Shown: positions 30,063 through 39,635 of the stretch, one piece after another
How positions within the stretch are numbered: position 1 is the first letter of the stretch
Layout: every line of letters begins with the position of its first letter
Source: Geodermatophilus amargosae
GTDB taxonomy: Bacteria > Actinomycetota > Actinomycetes > Mycobacteriales > Geodermatophilaceae
NCBI RefSeq assembly: GCF_900116515.1
Contig: NZ_FPBA01000003.1
Coordinates: 124,001 to 188,000 of the forward strand
Reading direction: 5' to 3'
Length of the DNA: 64,000 nt
Made by a program: the position numbers and the translations under genes
The notes under the pieces: model-generated
Seen by the model: only the letters and a program-made list of their open reading frames with translations
What the model was told of the DNA's origin: nothing
Database searches by the model: none

Positions 30063-30872
30063 TCAGCGGCCCGGGCGGAACGGGTTGCGGCCGGGCCGGA
30101 ACAGCGTCTCCTGGGTCAGGCTCGCGGCCAGCACGCCGTCGCGGGTGGTGACCGACCCGGTGTACCAGCCCCGTCCGCCGGAGACGGTGTGCGGGACGAG
30201 GTCCATGAGCACCCAGGCGTCGAGCCGGGCCGGCCGGTGGAACCACACCGCGTGGTCCAGCGTCGGGCCGGGCGCGGCCTCGTCCTCCGGCAGCGCCGAG
30301 AGCCCGGTGCCGATGTCGGAGAGGTAGGCGAGCGCGCAGGCGTGCACCAGCGGGTCGTCGGGCAGCGCCACGGTCGACCGGGACCAGAAGCGGGTCGGCA
30401 TGTGAGCCGCCTGCCACGGCTGGGACGGCGTCCGCCCCTCCATCGTGAAGAGCCGCGGCAGGGTGAACGGTGCGCACTCCGCCGGGTCCTCGGCGGCCGG
30501 GGCGGCCGCCACCTGCACGTCGGGCCCGGCGGTCGGCGCCTGGAACGACGCCGACATCGACAGCACGACCTCACCGCCCTGCACCGCCACCACCCGGCGG
30601 GCGGAGAACGAGCCGCCGTCGCGGTCCCGGTCGACCCGGAAGACGGTGGGCCGGGCGGCGTCGCCGCTGCGCAGGAAGTAGCCGTGCAGCGAGTGCGCCA
30701 GCCGGTCGGGCGCGACCGTGCGGCCGGCCGCGAGCAGCGCCTGCGCGGCGACCTGGCCGCCGTAGAGCGGCAGCGGGTCGGGAAAGACCAGGGTGCTGCG
30801 GTAGAGGTCGCGGTCGACCTCCTCGAGCGTCAGGACGTCGAGCAGCGTGGGATCCCCCGCGGTGGCGCTCAC
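30063..30872 (-). CDS. tesB: Acyl-CoA thioesterase II
   Basis: 269 aa double hot-dog protein from GTG 30872. N-terminal half: YRSTLVFPDPLPLYGGQVAAQALLAAGRTV, LAHSLHGYFLRSGD, FSARRVVAVQGGEVVLSMSASFQ. C-terminal half: LDHAVWFHRPARLDAWVLMDLVPHTVSGGRGWYTGSV and LAASLTQETLFRPG. This is the TesB pattern with the Asp/Thr/Gln active-site set. It hydrolyses medium- and long-chain acyl-CoAs; lies downstream of a thiolase and fits fatty-acid breakdown. Confidence 0.9.
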   Translation of the reverse strand: MSATAGDPTLLDVLTLEEVDRDLYRSTLVFPDPLPLYGGQVAAQALLAAGRTVAPDRLAHSLHGYFLRSGDAARPTVFRVDRDRDGGSFSARRVVAVQGGEVVLSMSASFQAPTAGPDVQVAAAPAAEDPAECAPFTLPRLFTMEGRTPSQPWQAAHMPTRFWSRSTVALPDDPLVHACALAYLSDIGTGLSALPEDEAAPGPTLDHAVWFHRPARLDAWVLMDLVPHTVSGGRGWYTGSVTTRDGVLAASLTQETLFRPGRNPFRPGR

Positions 30873-30888
30873 GACCGCCGAACGTAAC

Positions 30889-30926
30889 GGCGCCCGGGGC
30901 CACCCCTGCGGGCGGCCCCGGGCGCC
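30889..30926 (-). terminator. Terminator after the thiolase gene
   Basis: Perfect 13-bp arms (30889-30901 and 30914-30926, starting GGCGCCCGG) with a 12-nt loop lie between the thiolase end (30940) and the tesB start (30872), so tesB likely has its own promoter. Confidence 0.65.
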
Positions 30927-30939
30927 GGGGGTCGGGCCG

Positions 30940-32082
30940 CTACAGCAGCTCGAGGATGGTGGCGTTGGCCTGGCCGCCGCCCTCGCACATGGTCTGCAGG
31001 CCGTAGCGGATGCCGTTGTCGCGCATGTGGTGCACGAGCGTGGTCATGATCCGCGCGCCGGAGCCGCCGAGCGGGTGCCCCAGCGCGATGGCGCCGCCGT
31101 TGGGGTTGAGCGCCTTGGCGTCGGCGCCGATGTCGGCCAGCCACGCGAGCGGCACGGGGGCGAAGGCCTCGTTGACCTCGAAGGCGCCGATCTCGTCGAT
31201 CGACAGGCCCGACTTGGCCAGCGCCTTCTGGGTCGCCGGGATCGGGGCGGTGAGCATGACCACCGGGTCGCTGCCGGCGAGGACGGCGGTGTGCACCCGG
31301 GCGATGGGCGTGAGGCCCAGCTCGGCGGCCTTCTCCGACGTCGTCATCAGCAGCGCGGCCGCGCCGTCGGAGATCTGCGAGGAGTTGCCGGCGGTGATGA
31401 CGCCGTCCTCGCGGAAGGCGGTCTTCAGCGTGCCGAGCTTCTCCACCGTCGACTCGCGGATGCCCTCGTCCTGGCTGACCACGGTGCCGTCGGGCGTGGT
31501 CACCGGCGCGATCTGGGCGTCGAAGCGGCCCTCGGCGCGGGCGGCGGCGGCCTTCTCGTGCGAGGCGACTGAGAACTCGTCGCACTGCTGGCGGGACAGG
31601 CCCCAGCGCTCAGCGATGGTCTCCGCACCCAGCCCCTGGTTGATCTTCGCACCGGCGTAGCGCTCGGCGAACCGGGTGCCGAAGGGGTCGGCGTCCTTGC
31701 GCGCGGTGCCCATGGGCACGCGGCTCATCGACTCGACGCCGCCGGCCACGACGACGTCGTACTGCCCGGCGACGAGCCCGGCCGCGGCGAAGTGCACCGA
31801 CTGCTGCGAGGACCCGCACTGCCGGTCGACGGTCACGCCGGTCACCGTCTCCGGCCAGCCCGCCGCCAGCGCGGCGGTGCGCGCGATGTCGAAGGTCTGC
31901 TCCCCGACCTGGGAGACACAGCCCCAGATGACGTCCTCGATCTCGGCCGGGTCGATGCCGGCCCGCTCGGCCAGGGACGTGAGGACGTGCGCGGACAGGT
32001 CGACCGGGTGCACCCCCGACAGCCCGCCGTTGCGCTTGCCCACGGGCGCGCGCACCGCCTCGACGATCACCGCGTCACGCAT
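30940..32082 (-). CDS. Acetyl-CoA C-acyltransferase (thiolase)
   Basis: 380 aa. Nucleophilic Cys89 (VDRQCGSSQQSVHFAA), GHPLGGSGARIMTTL with the catalytic His, and CEGGGQANATI with the second Cys. DVIWGCVSQVGEQTFDIART near the N-terminus places it among degradative/steroid-type thiolases of actinobacteria. It cleaves 3-ketoacyl-CoA with CoA in beta-oxidation. No dehydrogenase gene is adjacent. Confidence 0.92.
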   Translation of the reverse strand: MRDAVIVEAVRAPVGKRNGGLSGVHPVDLSAHVLTSLAERAGIDPAEIEDVIWGCVSQVGEQTFDIARTAALAAGWPETVTGVTVDRQCGSSQQSVHFAAAGLVAGQYDVVVAGGVESMSRVPMGTARKDADPFGTRFAERYAGAKINQGLGAETIAERWGLSRQQCDEFSVASHEKAAAARAEGRFDAQIAPVTTPDGTVVSQDEGIRESTVEKLGTLKTAFREDGVITAGNSSQISDGAAALLMTTSEKAAELGLTPIARVHTAVLAGSDPVVMLTAPIPATQKALAKSGLSIDEIGAFEVNEAFAPVPLAWLADIGADAKALNPNGGAIALGHPLGGSGARIMTTLVHHMRDNGIRYGLQTMCEGGGQANATILELL

Positions 32083-32118
32083 GTCTGCTCCCCTCGACCA
32101 GGTGTGGTGCCCGGCACA

Positions 32119-33468
32119 CTAACCCGCGCTCCTGGCGGCGACGGCGGCCCGGGCGGGACGCCGCAGCAGGAGGCCCGCGGCCAGGGCGGCCAGCAGCGCG
32201 GCGGCGAGCCACCCCAGGCCCGCACCGGCCAGCGGCAGCGCCGTCCCCTCGCTCACCCGGACGACGAGCAGCACGACGGCGACGCCGAGCGCGGTGCCGA
32301 GCTGGGCGGCCGTGTTGAGCACCCCGGCCGCGGTCCCCTGCAGCTCCGCGGGGACGTCGGTCCCGAGCGACGTGGCGGCCACCGAGGACAGCCCGATGCC
32401 CAGCCCCGAGACGGCGACCCCGGCCGACACCACCCACGGCCCGAGCCCCGCGCCGAGCAGGGCCGCGGTACCGGCGGCGATGACGGCCAGGCCCGCGGCG
32501 GCGGTGGCGCGCGCGGAGACCGACCGCATCACCCGGGCCGAGAGGGCCGCGCCCCCGACGACGCACACGCTGAAGGGCAGCAGCGCCAGCCCGGTGGCCG
32601 TCGCACCCAGCCCCTCGCTGCCCTGCAGGTGCAGCGTGGCCACGGTGACCGCCGAGCTCGTCGTCGCGGTGTTGGCCGCCGAGGCGAGCACGCCGCGGCG
32701 CAGGCCGGGGTGCCCGACGGCGGTGCGCGGCAGCAGCGGGTCGCGGGCCCGGCGCTCGACGGCGGGCAGCGCCGACGCGGCGGCGAGGCCGGCCACGAGC
32801 AGCCCGGCGCCGGCGGCCCGGTGCGCGCCGTCCTCGAGCAGCGACGCGCCCGCCACGACCGCCGCCACGGCCGCGACGAGCACCGCCGCGCCGGCCAGGT
32901 CGAGGGGCCCGCCGCGCTCACGCGGGGTGGGCGGCGCGGTGCGGCGCACGGCGACCACGAGCAGCACCGCCAGCGGCAGGTTCCCCCAGAACAGCAGCCG
33001 CCACCCGGCGAGGTCGGTGAGCACGCCGCCGAGGACCAGCCCGCTCGCGCCGGCCGCCGCCCCGGTGGCGCTCCACGCGGCCAGCGCCCGCCGCCGCGCC
33101 GGCCCCTCCTCGGTCGCGGCGGTCAGCAGGCGCAGCGCGGTGGGCACCGAGAGCGCGGCCGCCGCACCCAGGGCGCCGCGAGCGGCCACCAGCACCCCGA
33201 CCGACGGGGCGACCGCCGCCGCCAGGGACGCCGCGCCGAAGCCGGCCAGCCCCACCGACAGCACCCGCGCGTGCCCGAACCGGTCGCCCAGGCGGGCCGC
33301 GAGCACCAGCAGCGCGCCGAAGAGGACGGCGTAGACGGCCACCACCGGGGTGGCCGCCGACGCGGGCGCGCCGAGGTCGGCCAGCATCGTCGGCAGCGCC
33401 GCGATCACCAGGGTGGTGCCGAGGACGTCGACGAACTGCACCGCGCAGAGCGGGACCACCGCCGTCAT
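32119..33468 (-). CDS. MFS exporter, DHA2-like
   Basis: 449 aa, about 14 membrane helices by inspection, strongly Ala-rich. CAVQFVDVLGTTLVIAALPTMLADLG in TM1 and AARLGDRFGHARVLSVGL as motif A. The N-terminus runs directly into TM1. It is divergent from a LacI regulator with a palindrome 18 bp before its ATG, so its expression is probably repressed by that protein. Substrate unknown. Confidence 0.82.
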   Translation of the reverse strand: MTAVVPLCAVQFVDVLGTTLVIAALPTMLADLGAPASAATPVVAVYAVLFGALLVLAARLGDRFGHARVLSVGLAGFGAASLAAAVAPSVGVLVAARGALGAAAALSVPTALRLLTAATEEGPARRRALAAWSATGAAAGASGLVLGGVLTDLAGWRLLFWGNLPLAVLLVVAVRRTAPPTPRERGGPLDLAGAAVLVAAVAAVVAGASLLEDGAHRAAGAGLLVAGLAAASALPAVERRARDPLLPRTAVGHPGLRRGVLASAANTATTSSAVTVATLHLQGSEGLGATATGLALLPFSVCVVGGAALSARVMRSVSARATAAAGLAVIAAGTAALLGAGLGPWVVSAGVAVSGLGIGLSSVAATSLGTDVPAELQGTAAGVLNTAAQLGTALGVAVVLLVVRVSEGTALPLAGAGLGWLAAALLAALAAGLLLRRPARAAVAARSAG

Positions 33469-33485
33469 GCCGCGGCGGTACCCGC

Positions 33486-33503
33486 TTCTTCATCGATGAA
33501 GCA
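33486..33503. promoter_or_regulatory. LacI-type operator between MFS and LacI genes
   Basis: CTTCATCGATGAAG (33488-33501) is a perfect 14-bp palindrome with a central CG, the usual shape of a LacI-family site, and extends to TTCTTCATCGATGAAGCA with one mismatch. It sits 16-18 bp from both start codons. Confidence 0.75.
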
Positions 33504-33518
33504 CGCGAGGATCACCGG

Positions 33519-34619
33519 GTGCCGCACGACCGCCACCGCCCGGTGACCCTCCAGGAGGTGGCCGCGGCGGTCGGCGTCTCGGCCAAGACGGTGTCCAACG
33601 CGTTCTCCCGGCCCGACCAGCTCTCCGCCGCGCTGCGCGAGCGGATCCTGGCCACCGCGCGCCGGCTCGGCTATCCCGGGCCCAACCCGCTCGCTGCAGG
33701 CCTGCGGCGCGGCCGCGTCGGCGCGATCGGCGTCGCCTACGACAACGGGCTGTCCTACGCCTTCGACGACCCGGTCGCCGTCGCGCTGCTCGCCGGGGTC
33801 GCGTCGGCGGCGGAGCCGGCCGGCTCCGGGCTGCTGCTCGTGCCCGGCTCGTCCGACCCCGCGCGGCGCCTGGCCGCGGTGAGCGACGCCGTCGTCGACG
33901 GGCTGGTCGTCTCCTCGGTGGGCGACGACGACCCGCTGCTCGCGGCGGCGATCGTCCGCGGGCTGCCGCTCGTCGTCGTGGACCAGCCCCGTCCGGACCG
34001 GCTCGCCGCGCTCGGGGCGCCGGGGACGCCGTGGGTGGGCGTGGACGACCGCGCCGCCGCGGCGGCCGTGGCCGGGCACCTGCTCGACCTCGGGCACCGG
34101 CGGCTGGCCGTCGTCTCCTTCGGGATGCACCGGGACCCGATCACCCCCGGGCTGGTGGACGAGCGGGCGCAGGCGGCCGCCACCTACGCCGTCACCCGTG
34201 ACCGGCTGGCCGGCTACCGCGACGCCGCGCGGCGCGCCGGGCTCGACTGGGCGGGCGTCCCGGTGTTCCACGGCGGCGACAGCACGCCCGAGGTCGGGGA
34301 GGTCGGCGCGGATGCCGTCCTCGCCACCGACCCGCGTCCGACGGCGCTGCTGTGCCTGAGCGACCGGCTCGCGGAGGGCGCGTTGCAGGCGGCGGCCCGG
34401 CTCGGCCTGCGGGTGCCCGGGGACCTGTCGGTCGCCGGCTTCGACGACGCCGCGACGGCGCCCGGCCTCGGCCTCACCACCGTCCGCCAGCCGACCCGCG
34501 AGAAGGGCCGGGCGGCCGGTCAGGCCCTGCTGGACCTGCTGGCCGCCCGGCCCGCCCCCGCGCCGCGGAGCCTGCCCGCGGAGCTCGTCGTCCGGACCTC
34601 GACGGGCCCGCCCGCCTAG
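33519..34619 (+). CDS. LacI-family transcriptional regulator
   Basis: 366 aa from GTG 33519. HTH: VTLQEVAAAVGVSAKTVSNAFSRPDQLSAALRERILATARRLGY with the hinge PNPLAAGLRRGRVGAIGV. The periplasmic-binding-like domain follows (GLVVSSVGDDDPLL, WVGVDDRAAAAAVAGHLLDLGHRRLAVV, DRLAEGALQAAARLGLRVPGDLSVAGFDD). Its C-terminus overlaps the crotonase gene end by 4 bp. It probably represses the divergent MFS gene and itself; ligand unknown. Confidence 0.9.
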   Translation: MPHDRHRPVTLQEVAAAVGVSAKTVSNAFSRPDQLSAALRERILATARRLGYPGPNPLAAGLRRGRVGAIGVAYDNGLSYAFDDPVAVALLAGVASAAEPAGSGLLLVPGSSDPARRLAAVSDAVVDGLVVSSVGDDDPLLAAAIVRGLPLVVVDQPRPDRLAALGAPGTPWVGVDDRAAAAAVAGHLLDLGHRRLAVVSFGMHRDPITPGLVDERAQAAATYAVTRDRLAGYRDAARRAGLDWAGVPVFHGGDSTPEVGEVGADAVLATDPRPTALLCLSDRLAEGALQAAARLGLRVPGDLSVAGFDDAATAPGLGLTTVRQPTREKGRAAGQALLDLLAARPAPAPRSLPAELVVRTSTGPPA

Positions 34620-35392
34620 CGCCCCTTCCAGACCGGCTTGCGGCGCTCGGCGAACGCGGTCGCGCCCTCGCGGGCGTCCTCGGAGGCGAACACCGGCTCG
34701 ATGAGCGGCTGCTGCCTCGCCCAGGCCTCCTCGGCCGTCCAGTCGGAGGTGCTGCGCGCGATCTGCTTGGTCACGGCGACCGCCAGCGGGCCGTTGGCGG
34801 CGATGACCTCGGCCAGCGCGACGGCGGCCTCGAGCGCACCGCCCTCGTCGACGACGCGGTTGACCAGCCCGACGGCGGCGGCCCGCTCGGCGTCGACCGG
34901 CTGCCCGGTCAGCAGCATCTCCATCGCGACGGCGTGCGGCACCCGCCGCGGCAGGAACAGCGCGGCACCGCCGGCGGCGATCAGCGACCGGGACACCTCG
35001 GGCACGCCGAAGCGCGCCGACCGCCCGGCGACGACGAGGTCGCAGGCGAGCACCAGCTCGAACCCGCCGGCCAGCGCCCACCCCTCGACGGCGGCCAGCA
35101 GCGGCTTGCGCGGCGGCGTCTGGGTGATCCCGCACAGCCCGCGCCCCTCGATCGAGGGCCGCTCGCCGCGCAGGAACGCCTTGAGGTCCATGCCGGCGGA
35201 GAACGTGCCGCCGGCACCGGTGAGCACGCCGGCGCGCAGGTCGTCGGAGGCGTCGAGCTCGTCCACGGCGTCGGCGACGCCCCGGGCGACCGCGCCGTCC
35301 AGGGCGTTCTTGGCCTGCGGCCGGTTGATGGTGATCACCTGGACGGCGCCGCGGCGCTCGACCAGCACGGACTCGGTTCCGGGCTCGCTCAC
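34616..35392 (-). CDS. Enoyl-CoA hydratase/isomerase (crotonase) family protein
   Basis: 258 aa from GTG 35392 with GGAGGAGG upstream. Oxyanion-hole segments ALDGAVARGVADAVDEL, FSAGMDLKAFLRGE and EGWALAGGFELVLACDLVVAGRSARFGVPEV carry the conserved Glu position of hydratases; KPVWKGR ends the protein. It hydrates or isomerises an enoyl-CoA. Next gene upstream is a CoA-transferase, 47 bp away, so the block may degrade a branched or methyl-branched acid. Confidence 0.88.
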   Translation of the reverse strand: MSEPGTESVLVERRGAVQVITINRPQAKNALDGAVARGVADAVDELDASDDLRAGVLTGAGGTFSAGMDLKAFLRGERPSIEGRGLCGITQTPPRKPLLAAVEGWALAGGFELVLACDLVVAGRSARFGVPEVSRSLIAAGGAALFLPRRVPHAVAMEMLLTGQPVDAERAAAVGLVNRVVDEGGALEAAVALAEVIAANGPLAVAVTKQIARSTSDWTAEEAWARQQPLIEPVFASEDAREGATAFAERRKPVWKGR

Positions 35393-35438
35393 TGCTGGGC
35401 CTCCTCCTCCGCGGCGCACCGCGGCTCGTGCGTCCCCG

Positions 35439-36554
35439 TCATCGGGGGCGCGACCACTCCTCCAGCACGGCCGCGGCGTCGGCCGGGCCGGGCGGCACCG
35501 GGGCGGGCGGCCCCGCCGGCGTGCGGGAGAACCGCGGCGCCGGGGCGGCCTGCCGGACGCCGTCGACGTCCACGAGCGTGCCGCGGGCGGCCAGGTGCGG
35601 GTGCTCGGCGGCCTCGTCCGACGTCAGGACCGGCGTGACGCAGGCGTCGGTGCCGTCGAAGACGCGCTCCCAGTGCTCCCGCGGCTGCGCGGCGAACGCG
35701 GCGGTGAACAGCTCCCGCAGCCGCGGCCAGCCGCGCGGGTCGGCCTGCGCCGGCAGGTCCTCCCCGGCCAGCCCCAGCCCGTCCAGCAGCGCCGCGTAGA
35801 ACTGCGGCTCCAGCGCGCCGACGGCGACGAAGCGGCCGTCGGCGCAGGCATAGACGTCGTAGTAGGGCGCGCCGCCGTCGAGGACGTTGGTGCCCGGCCG
35901 GTCCGACCACAGCCCCATGCCGCGCATCGACCACAGCATCTGCGAGATCAGCGCGACGCCGTCGACCATGGCGGCGTCGACCACCTGGCCGCGGCCCGAG
36001 CGCGACCGCTCGTGCAGCGCGGCCAGGATGCCGACCAGCACCAGCATCGACCCGCCGCCGTAGTCGGCGACCAGGTTCAGCGGCGGGCGGGGCACCTCAC
36101 CGGGCCGGCCGAGGGCGGCCAGGGTGCCGGTGAGCCCGAGGTAGTTGACGTCGTGGCCGACCCGGTCGGCCCACGGCCCGTCCTGCCCCCACCCGGTCAT
36201 CCGCGCGTAGACCAGACCCGGCGCGCGCTCCAGGCAGGCGTCGGGGCCGAGGCCCAGCCGCTCGGCCACGCCGGGGCGGAAGACGTCGAGGAACACGTCG
36301 GCGTGCCCGGTCAGGCCCAGCACCAGGTCGCGGCCCTCGGGCGTCTTCACGTCGACGGCGAGCGAGCGCCGGCCGCGCATCACGACGTCGCGCGCCGCAC
36401 CGCCCAGCGACAGCCCGCCGGAGGGCCGCTCCACCCGGACGACGTCGGCGCCGAGGTCGGCCAGGACCATCGCCGCGTGCGGGCCGGGCCCGATGCCGCC
36501 GAGCTCCACCACCCGCAGGCCGGCCAGCGGTCCCCCGGTTCCGCCCCCGCTCAC
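35439..36554 (-). CDS. CaiB/BaiF-family CoA-transferase, alpha-methylacyl-CoA racemase-like
   Basis: 371 aa from GTG 36554, which overlaps the upstream stop as [40 protein letters not shown], then [34 protein letters not shown] and [21 protein letters not shown]. The [11 protein letters not shown] motif with its HD pair is that of alpha-methylacyl-CoA racemase. It probably epimerises 2-methylacyl-CoA so that beta-oxidation can proceed, consistent with the crotonase next door. Confidence 0.88.
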
Positions 36555-37255
36555 GTCCGGGTCCGCAGGTGCCGGTCGAAGAAGCGCAGGATGCGCGCCC
36601 ACGCGTCCTCCGCCGACGGCCCGTGGTGACCGACGCCGAGCACCTTCCCCAGCGCGGTGAGGGGCCCCGCGTCGTGGCGGTTGAGGAACGAGTGCCCGGC
36701 GTCGGGGTACTCCTTCACGTCGTGCTCGACGCCGAGGTCGGTGAGCACCCGGTCCAGCCGGCCGGCCGCGCCGCGCAGCGCGACGTCGCGGCGGCCGTAG
36801 CTGCCCACCACCGGGCAGGCGCCGGCGAGCACCCGCTCGGCGTCCGCGGGCAGCGGGCCGTAGTTGGGCGCCGAGACGTCGAACCCGCGGGTGGCGCCCA
36901 TCAGCGCGAACTTCCCGCCCATGCAGAACCCGAGGACCCCGATCCGGCCGGTGCAGTCGTCCCGGCCGGCGAGGAACCGGCGCGCGGCCTCGAGGTCGCC
37001 GAAGGCCGGGCCCTCGCCGCGGTTGAGCGACCGGAACGTCGAGCGCAGGCAGCGCACCGCGCCCCCGGCGGTGAACAGGTCCGGCGCGACGGCGAGGTAG
37101 CCCGCCGCGGCCAGCCGGTCGGCGTGCTGCCGCACGTCGTCGGTGAGACCGAAGACCTCGTGGACGACGACGACACCGGGCCAGGGCCCCTCGCCCACCG
37201 GCGGGACGGCCAGGTGGGCGGACAGCTCCGGCGCGCTCGCGCCGCCGGGGATCAC
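36551..37255 (-). CDS. Dienelactone hydrolase-family protein
   Basis: About 234 aa. [38 protein letters not shown], nucleophile elbow [16 protein letters not shown] (catalytic Cys as in dienelactone hydrolase) and [15 protein letters not shown] with the His. GTG 37255 is the first good start; the frame stays open to 37435, where no ribosome site is seen. Such enzymes open lactones or hydrolyse esters. Coupled to the racemase gene by 4 bp. Confidence 0.83.
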
Positions 37256-38171: not shown

Positions 38172-38269
38172 GCACCGGCCGGGTCCGCCCGGCGCACTCC
38201 CCCGACAGCCCCGTGGCCACCGGCCGCGGGGCTGCCCCGTTCCCGGGCGGTGGTGGTTCCCCGGCGGTG

Positions 38270-38311
38270 GTGTGCGCCACACTCCGCCGCTAGAGTGGCA
38301 CTGAGTGCCAC
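38270..38311. promoter_or_regulatory. Two inverted repeats upstream of mftD
   Basis: GTGTGcgcCACAC (38270-38282) and GTGGCACtgaGTGCCAC (38295-38311) lie in tandem, the second a perfect 7-bp repeat 39 bp before the mftD start. CACTC and GAGTG (38280-38297) add a third overlapping symmetry. Probably operator sites for one or two repressors. Confidence 0.55.
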
Positions 38312-38349
38312 CGGGGCCGGCCCGGCGGGACGGACGAACGGAGACACTC

Positions 38350-39594
38350 GTGGCGAACGCGTGGTTCGAGACGGTGGCCGAGGCCCAGCGGCGCGCGAAG
38401 CGCCGGCTCCCCAAGGGCGTCTACGGCGCCCTGGTGGCCGGGTCGGAGAAGGGCCTGACCGTCGACGACAACATCCGGGCCTTCGAGGAGCTGGGTTTCG
38501 CGCCGCACACCGCGGGCCTGGCCAACGAGCGCCGGATGGCCACCCGCGTCATGGGCCAGGACGTGTCGATGCCGGTCCTGATCAGCCCGACCGGCGTGCA
38601 GGCCGTGCACCCCGACGGCGAGGTCGCCGTCGCCCGCGCCGCGGCCGCCCGCGGCGTGGCGATGGGCCTGTCCTCGTTCGCCAGCAAGCCGGTCGAGGAG
38701 GTCGTCGCGGCCAACCCGCAGACCTTCTTCCAGATGTACTGGGTGGGCACCCGCGAGGAGATGCTCGCCCGCATGGACCGGGCCAGGCGCGCCGGCGCCG
38801 TCGGCATGATCGCCACCCTCGACTGGTCCTTCGCCTACGGCCGCGACTGGGGCAGCCCGTTCATCCCCGCGAAGATCGACTTCGAGGCCGCCCGCCGCTA
38901 CGCGCCGCAGGTGCTCATGCGCCCGCGCTGGCTGGCCGCCTTCGCGAGGACCGGCCGCATCCCGGACCTCACCGTCCCCAACATGGTCGCCACCCCGGGC
39001 GAGCAGGCGCCCACCTTCTTCGGCGCCTACGGCATGTGGCAGGCATCCCCCATGCCCGGCTGGGACGACCTCGCCTGGCTGCGCGAGCAGTGGGACGGGC
39101 CGTTCATGCTCAAGGGCGTCATGCGCGTCGACGACGCGAAGAAGGCCGTCGACGCCGGCGTCACCGCCATCTCGGTGTCCAACCACGGCGGCAACAACCT
39201 CGACGGCACCCCCGCCTCCATCCGCGCCCTGCCGGCGGTGGCCGAGGCGGTCGGCGACCAGGTCGAGGTGCTCCTCGACGGCGGCATCCGCCGCGGCACC
39301 GACGTCGCCAAGGCCCTCGCCCTGGGCGCCAAGGCGGTCATGATCGGCCGCGCCTACCTCTGGGGCCTCGCCGCCAACGGGCAGGCCGGCGTAGAGAACG
39401 TGCTCGACCTGCTGCGCGACGGCCTCGGCTCCGCACTCACCGGCCTGGGCCGCGACTCGGTGGCCGACCTGGCCCGCGACGACCTGGTCATCCCACCCGG
39501 CTTCGAGCGGCGCCTGGGCGTCGAGGGCCCCGACGCACCGGTCGAGTCCGTCGAGTCGGTCCCCGCGCGCAACCGCCGCAGCCGCAGCGCCTGA
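38350..39594 (+). CDS. mftD: Pre-mycofactocin synthase MftD (alpha-hydroxyacid-oxidase family)
   Basis: 414 aa from GTG 38350 (GGAG upstream). It begins MANAWFETVAEAQRRAKRRLPKGVYGALVAGSEKGLTVDDNIRAFEELGFAPHTAGL and carries FMN-enzyme motifs ISPTGVQAVHPDGEVAVARAAAARG, SVSNHGGNNLDGTPASIRALP and LLDGGIRRGTDVAKALALGA. This is the MftD pattern; MftD oxidises the cyclised Val-Tyr product to the alpha-keto, redox-active pre-mycofactocin. No mftA, B, C, E or F is in the window, so the gene is separated from the usual cluster. A hairpin follows. Confidence 0.85.
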   Translation: MANAWFETVAEAQRRAKRRLPKGVYGALVAGSEKGLTVDDNIRAFEELGFAPHTAGLANERRMATRVMGQDVSMPVLISPTGVQAVHPDGEVAVARAAAARGVAMGLSSFASKPVEEVVAANPQTFFQMYWVGTREEMLARMDRARRAGAVGMIATLDWSFAYGRDWGSPFIPAKIDFEAARRYAPQVLMRPRWLAAFARTGRIPDLTVPNMVATPGEQAPTFFGAYGMWQASPMPGWDDLAWLREQWDGPFMLKGVMRVDDAKKAVDAGVTAISVSNHGGNNLDGTPASIRALPAVAEAVGDQVEVLLDGGIRRGTDVAKALALGAKAVMIGRAYLWGLAANGQAGVENVLDLLRDGLGSALTGLGRDSVADLARDDLVIPPGFERRLGVEGPDAPVESVESVPARNRRSRSA

Positions 39595-39601
39595 CCGCCG
39601 C

Positions 39602-39635
39602 CGGCCGGGGTCCCCTGAGCCGAGGACCCCGGCCG
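39602..39635 (+). terminator. Terminator after mftD
   Basis: Perfect 12-bp arms (39602-39613 and 39624-39635, starting CGGCCGGGG) with a 10-nt loop lie 7 bp after the mftD stop, before the SARP-type gene. Confidence 0.7.

Follow-up and report, generated by a model that had tools for sequence, protein, structure and literature searches.

We consider it highly likely that the mftD gene carried by a 64,000-nucleotide stretch of the Geodermatophilus amargosae genome (the window, part of contig C64) encodes this genome's main premycofactocin synthase, and that this gene, lying outside the mycofactocin (mft) cluster, is controlled together with the mftA unit by the repressor MftR. Mycofactocin is a peptide-derived redox cofactor, and its genes are usually recognised by adjacency. 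The enzyme itself is an ordinary MftD; the new part is a dispersed mft system whose parts appear to be tied together, in every Geodermatophilus genome examined, by a shared operator that is stronger at mftD. No report of a dispersed MftR regulon was found among the open-literature matches listed; one paper among them, Haft 2011 (PMC3023750), names both mycofactocin and Geodermatophilus.

Identity of the window mftD and location of the other mft genes

The window protein scored 691.8 bits against the MftD equivalog model TIGR03966, 221 bits above the cut-off of 470.85, and 358.8 bits against the Pfam family FMN_dh (PF01070), and its best named match, at 90%, came from Geodermatophilus dictyosporus. 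It shares membership of TIGR03966 and FMN_dh, as well as the HGGNNLD signature, with the mycobacterial MftD (Rv0694 / LldD1). The lactate dehydrogenase and oxidase models remained below their cut-offs, and the candidate assignment as L-lactate dehydrogenase LldD was rejected (NF033901, 226.2 bits against a cut-off of 550; Asn, not Arg, at the substrate-binding column). The features of the locus are collected in Table 1; position 38172, from which the gene had first been delimited, is the base following a small upstream ORF, and the mftD start lies elsewhere (38350).

Table 1. Features of the mftD locus in window coordinates
Feature	Position	Strand	Description
First inverted repeat, GTGTGcgcCACAC	38270..38282	.	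Probably just the -35 area
-10-like element, TAGAGT	38291..38296	+	Shares its last two bases with the start of the palindrome
Predicted MftR operator, GTGGCACTGAGTGCCAC (second inverted repeat, GTGGCACtgaGTGCCAC)	38295..38311	.	Perfect palindrome with a one-base centre
15-base core of the predicted operator	38296..38310		G000:C64:162296-162310
GGCA-N5-TGCC core, GGCACTGAGTGCC	38297..38309
mftD, premycofactocin synthase	38350..39594	+	414 aa, GTG start, stop ends at 39594, GGAGA upstream
12-bp hairpin without T-run, possible terminator	39602..39635	+	Just 3' of mftD

The first-pass annotation had proposed checks of active-site conservation and of phylogeny against cluster-bound MftD, and both placed the protein within the family. 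Six residues that we take to form the catalytic site (Y25, presumably the N-terminal Tyr, and Y130, D158, K255, H279 and N282, to which we presumptively assign catalytic roles) were identical in all 195 MftD rows, 172 of them distinct. In the aligned lactate oxidase 7f22 the last five of these columns hold Tyr, Asp, Lys, His and Arg, and N282, Asn in 195/195 MftD, occupies the column of the Arg that in hydroxyacid oxidases presumably binds the hydroxyacid. A quick tree was built from 120 rows, comprising 101 family mftD copies out of 115 (14 copies of group g2 were omitted to limit its size) and 19 of 56 outside loci; 52 of its 117 inner branches were weak. In this tree the window MftD fell inside a 58-row Geodermatophilaceae clade (SH-aLRT 99), many members of which are cluster-bound. 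On sequence grounds the window enzyme is a genuine MftD that looks intact and belongs to a split mycofactocin cluster, and by family membership it would turn over AHDP.

The first-pass annotation had observed that mftA, mftB, mftC and mftE are absent here and had called the enzyme an orphan. The absence stood for mftA and mftC: across the source genome (5.87 Mb, 69 contigs) their matches fell on contigs C48 and C21 only, and contig C64 had neither; mftB and mftE were located beside mftC on C48 when that locus was read. The orphan label did not survive, as C48 of the same genome carries mftR, mftA, mftB, mftC, mftE and mftF, whose proteins all scored above curated cut-offs (mftC at 651 bits, mftF at 478 bits and mftR narrowly, at 228.3 against 224.9), as well as mftG (448 bits, cut-off 387.45) about 200 kb from mftC. 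In this cluster mftR (+) is divergent from mftA-mftB-mftC, which are followed by one gene, mftE, an NCS1-type permease gene, two genes and mftF; a simple gene caller was used, with at least one gene drawn too long (L014 7396-9255), including the C48 gene after mftC. Loss of mftD adjacency throughout the genus, with the operator kept, means that tools and readers relying on neighbourhood will miscall such a cluster incomplete or such an enzyme orphan.

Two mftD genes exceeded the cut-off genome-wide, the window copy on C64 and a copy on C21, with none on C48. The window copy and mftABC lie on different contigs, and laying C64 and C48 end to end would still leave more than 200 kb between mftD and mftC. 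The first-pass annotation had held that its reading would fall if an intact cluster with another mftD were found elsewhere and the window copy grouped outside MftD; the second mftD sits beside an mftA only, and the window copy groups within MftD.

The C21 genes form a pair, mftA2-mftD2 (L007 8252-9922; G000:C21, about 77.2-78.9 kb), with full-length family scores. No mftB, mftC or mftE was seen beside the pair, the neighbours being ferredoxin-like and P450 genes, and an operator-like site, CGGCACTCAGTGCAA, with 2 mismatches lies 73 bases before mftA2.

Downstream of the window mftD, the segment 39596-39650 folds at -34.6 kcal/mol (z -4.28). A scan for terminator consensus, which requires a T-run, found none after mftD, and a promoter scan of the locus found nothing; were the hairpin in Table 1 a terminator, mftD would be a one-gene unit.

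Extent of the split and the two types of mftD

The split, one of the two explanations offered by the first-pass annotation, was borne out across the lineage. Our sample comprised 112 Geodermatophilaceae genomes, in which MftD (called at E <=1e-100) was found in 101 and MftC in 99. Among the 96 good genomes (>=90% complete, <=5% contaminated), both were present in 91, both were absent in five (G032, G090, G093, G099 and G111) and none was discordant, so that the family of the window MftD occurs in good genomes only together with mftC. Of the 16 genomes that missed either threshold, eight were discordant, with MftD but no MftC in G034, G037, G081, G095 and G097 and MftC but no MftD in G036, G096 and G098, of which G096 has a piece of mftD at a contig end; this discordance is put down to incompleteness.

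With group g1 taken as Geodermatophilus, mftD was unlinked from mftC in 26/26 genomes, none of the 30 copies lying within 100 kb of mftC. Four of these genomes carry the two genes on a single contig, separated by 1.7-4.5 Mb of its length, or by at least about 0.8 Mb if the contig is circular; the status of the other 22 is read from separate contigs. With g2 taken as Blastococcus (g3 also contains some Blastococcus-named records), 23/23 genomes have one mftD at a distance of 1.3-2.1 kb from mftC, on the opposite strand; one of these genomes has an extra unlinked copy. Linkage was mixed in the remaining groups of the family. In the Rhodococcus loci retrieved mftD is directly 3' of mftC, whereas the window mftD lies elsewhere in the genome with its own predicted operator.

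Synteny points to the place from which mftD moved. The Blastococcus mft cluster (g2 and g3) has the same gene types, the same operator before mftD and an mftR divergent from mftABC, and there mftD adjoins mftR with the operator between them. In 8/8 Blastococcus-named loci compared, mftD is flanked by mftR on one side and, on the other, by homologues of the genes found 3' of mftR on C48; the corresponding slot on C48 holds a class-V aminotransferase gene, and this arrangement shows what appears to be the slot vacated by mftD.

The window type of mftD occurs in 10 of the 26 Geodermatophilus genomes, and in all ten it is accompanied by homologues of the genes at 34616-35392, 35439-36512 and 36551-37255. 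The other 16 genomes have a different mftD, with THGGNNLD where the window type has NHGGNNLD, in a separate clade of the tree. Ten of these 16 have a 74-78% homologue of the gene at 36551-37255, and mftD was absent from the 1.5 kb fetched beside it. Geodermatophilus therefore has two types of mftD, at no fewer than two locations. The 16 genomes with the other type (L017-L024, L026-L028 and L030-L034) mostly show a worn operator, TGACACTNAGTGCCA, at mftD.

These distributions bear on two other readings of the window gene. According to one, raised by the first-pass annotation, the enzyme is a relative of MftD that acts on a new substrate unrelated to mycofactocin. Its position away from mftABCEF, its neighbours, which include enoyl-CoA hydratase, CoA-transferase, thiolase and thioesterase genes, and the presence beside mftA on C21 of an mftD that might perform the mycofactocin step would fit this idea. 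We nevertheless judge it very unlikely, given the equivalog score 221 bits above the cut-off, the nesting among cluster-bound MftD, the invariant residues, the mft-type operator, and the fact that mftD never occurred without mftC in the 96 good genomes; moreover, the C21 copy is sporadic, in a clade with only two further family copies, whereas the window type is in 10/26 Geodermatophilus genomes. The second reading makes the C21 pair the functional source of MftD and the window copy a relic. Although mftA2 and mftD2 are adjacent, have full-length family scores and have an operator-like site before mftA2, the window copy is itself of full length, keeps the invariant residues and has an operator of its own, and the C21 type is rare and forms a long branch that falls outside the main clade of the family, grouping among family copies only with G040:C36 and G029:C15; that the window copy is a relic seems to us very improbable. 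The window gene stays the preferred candidate for the main premycofactocin synthase.

Predicted MftR operators at mftD and mftA

The first-pass annotation had described two inverted repeats upstream of mftD as a compound operator marking tight regulation. Both repeats exist as written (Table 1). The first was rejected as an operator, being a perfect palindrome at the same distance from the operator in 3/10 window-type genomes, in a comparison that allowed no gaps (in G042 a near copy is displaced by one base). The second is conserved beyond chance: a site with <=2 mismatches was found within 300 bp before one mftD in 26/26 Geodermatophilus genomes and in 0/4768 control 300-bp windows. The compound operator therefore comes down to a single real site; the other repeat, in the -35 area, is unsupported. 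The second repeat is very probably an MftR operator, a predicted role in which its conservation supports the tight regulation that had been proposed.

Within the 5.87 Mb source genome the exact pattern, TGGCACTNAGTGCCA, occurs once, and its reversed control does not occur. At <=2 mismatches there were nine sites against eight for the reversed pattern, so the count proves nothing and only placement is informative. At mftD the site overlaps a promoter-like element: among 92 mftD promoters with an operator of <=1 mismatch, 59 have TANNNT at the -10 place, against a background of 72 in 33,925 positions over all upstream stretches, those 59 included.

The site resembles the one known from mycobacteria. 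In M. smegmatis, MftR protects TCCATTCTGGCACTCGATGCCATATAT at -79 to -53 of mftA in a DNase footprint (PMC8728441), and the same paper gives the operator consensus as T-N2-GGCA-N5-TGCC-N2-A and reports that single replacements did not abolish MftR binding. The M. smegmatis operator and the window site share GGCA-N5-TGCC, and their 15-base cores agree at 13/15 positions (by eye, on the reverse strand); the window site has no match to the outer T and A of the consensus.

Across the 112 family genomes the exact pattern gave 73 sites in 67 genomes, compared with one for the reversed pattern. Of these copies, 67 precede mftD (66 lie <=400 bp before a complete mftD and one precedes an mftD cut by a contig end), two precede mftA (G080 and G106), three are at mycofactocin-coupled SDR genes and one is elsewhere, so that 72/73 precede mft genes or a mycofactocin-coupled SDR gene; the unexplained copy (G058:C14) is near a gene that by eye resembles a transposase. 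A site with <=2 mismatches precedes 96 of the 115 family mftD copies, and the 19 copies without one include six linked copies of g5, g6 and g7 and four accessory Geodermatophilus copies (G000:C21, G040:C36, G053:C14 and G058:C12). Outside the family (55 of 56 outside loci, L125 being left out), a <=3-mismatch site preceded mftD in 4/20 loci whose fetched stretch lacked mftC, 10 of these 20 having been fetched with <10 kb on a side, and in 2/35 loci with mftC in the stretch (Compostimonas and Herbiconiux); a private operator at mftD is therefore not general. The four loci (L070, L071, L073 and L076), from Acidiferrimicrobium, Amycolatopsis (two) and Pseudonocardia, have mftD and no mftC in the fetched stretch, and their operator-like site is about 50-52 bases before the aligned mftD start.

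A weaker copy of the operator, with 2-4 mismatches, begins 57-61 bases before mftA in 25 of the 26 Geodermatophilus genomes, compared with the footprint at -79 to -53 of mftA in M. smegmatis; in the remaining genome, G048, a search upstream of mftA found no operator site. In the source genome this copy, TGGCACTCGGTGTCT, has 3 mismatches and lies 59 bases before mftA, and 2/200 shuffles were as good. At most 2/200 shuffles were as good in 20 of the 25 genomes; 7-12 of 200 were as good in G042, G044, G046, G063 and G064, where the fixed position is the better argument. Because mftD promoters supplied the pattern, only the M. smegmatis footprint and mftA test it independently.

For the same reason, the greater strength at mftD than at mftA is partly built in. 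Symmetry was also considered as the number of complementary pairs between half-sites (seven possible), using sites found by means of the mftD consensus, a choice that favours mftD. The mftD site was the more symmetrical in 24 of the 25 Geodermatophilus genomes, with a tie in one; in the 34 genomes of other groups in which both sites were read, mftD had more pairs in 27, an equal number in seven and fewer in none. The M. smegmatis mftA site has 5/7 pairs by this count. The greater symmetry at mftD is the ground for a bolder reading of mftD as the main gate.

Another TetR-type repressor might bind the palindrome, in which case mftD would be regulated apart from the mftA unit. The source genome has two MftR-like TetR genes (61.3 and 146.3 bits; cut-off 224.9) whose products could bind similar palindromes. 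Nonetheless, in 25/26 genomes the same palindrome recurs upstream of mftA, next to mftR, at a constant position, exact copies precede mftA in G080 and G106, the site matches the MftR footprint, and in Blastococcus-named loci the operator lies between adjoining mftR and mftD genes. Regulation by another repressor is thus improbable, and MftR is the preferred regulator of both units.

A model for joint control of the dispersed units

The enzyme steps of mycofactocin synthesis are known from mycobacteria and are assigned here by family membership. MftA would be made from the C48 cluster, MftC, with MftB, would join its Val-Tyr end, which MftE would excise, MftD from the window locus would convert AHDP to premycofactocin by oxidative deamination, and MftF would glycosylate the product. 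From gene placement and the conservation of both operator sites, we infer MftR binding, repression and its effector as follows. MftR, a TetR-type repressor whose gene lies beside mftA, would occupy GTGGCACtnaGTGCCAC, which sits directly on the mftD promoter, as well as the weaker palindrome before mftA, and the two unlinked units would be shut and opened together, the effector in M. smegmatis being long-chain acyl-CoA. PMC11778925 describes both the conversion of AHDP to premycofactocin by MftD and derepression through MftR by acyl-CoA esters. Separated mft units can probably still be controlled together. Against this model stand the degenerate mftA site of the source genome, with its 3 mismatches, and the score of MftR, barely above the cut-off.

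In M. smegmatis one protected region is described, before mftA, whereas here there are at least two unlinked predicted sites, the better one at mftD. Overproduction of MftR in M. smegmatis lowered mftD about 80-fold, the most of any mft gene (PMC8728441). We offer as a tentative and rather doubtful extension that mycofactocin synthesis is gated most tightly at MftD. With a near-perfect palindrome at mftD and a worn one at the mftA operon, the precursor might be made and stored as AHDP, the redox-active centre being formed only on a stronger acyl-CoA signal, and selection for separate control might have let mftD leave with its operator kept. The conserved palindrome points to formation of the redox centre as a main control point.

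The conserved palindrome also defines a testable MftR regulon outside mycobacteria, which would include a mycofactocin-coupled dehydrogenase in three genomes. In these genomes of group g8 (L274, L275 and L276, from G075, G080 and G082) the exact operator precedes an SDR gene above the TIGR03971 cut-off, a further predicted site relative to M. smegmatis, hinting that the regulon includes a client enzyme; the three sites share their gap with a divergent gene and could serve that gene instead.

In the source genome itself, the two MftR-like TetR genes (TIGR03968, 61.3 and 146.3 bits) are each divergent from an SDR gene (TIGR03971), at L133 898-2376 (G000:C42) and L135 632-2157 (C61), and the gaps contain palindromes resembling the MftR operator (TTGCACTGAGTGCAA and TGGCACGCGGTGCCA, respectively). 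Finally, the region of the window near mftD (30063-37255) carries acyl-CoA thioesterase, thiolase, enoyl-CoA hydratase, CoA-transferase and dienelactone hydrolase genes, and these neighbours are of note because M. smegmatis MftR answers to long-chain acyl-CoA.
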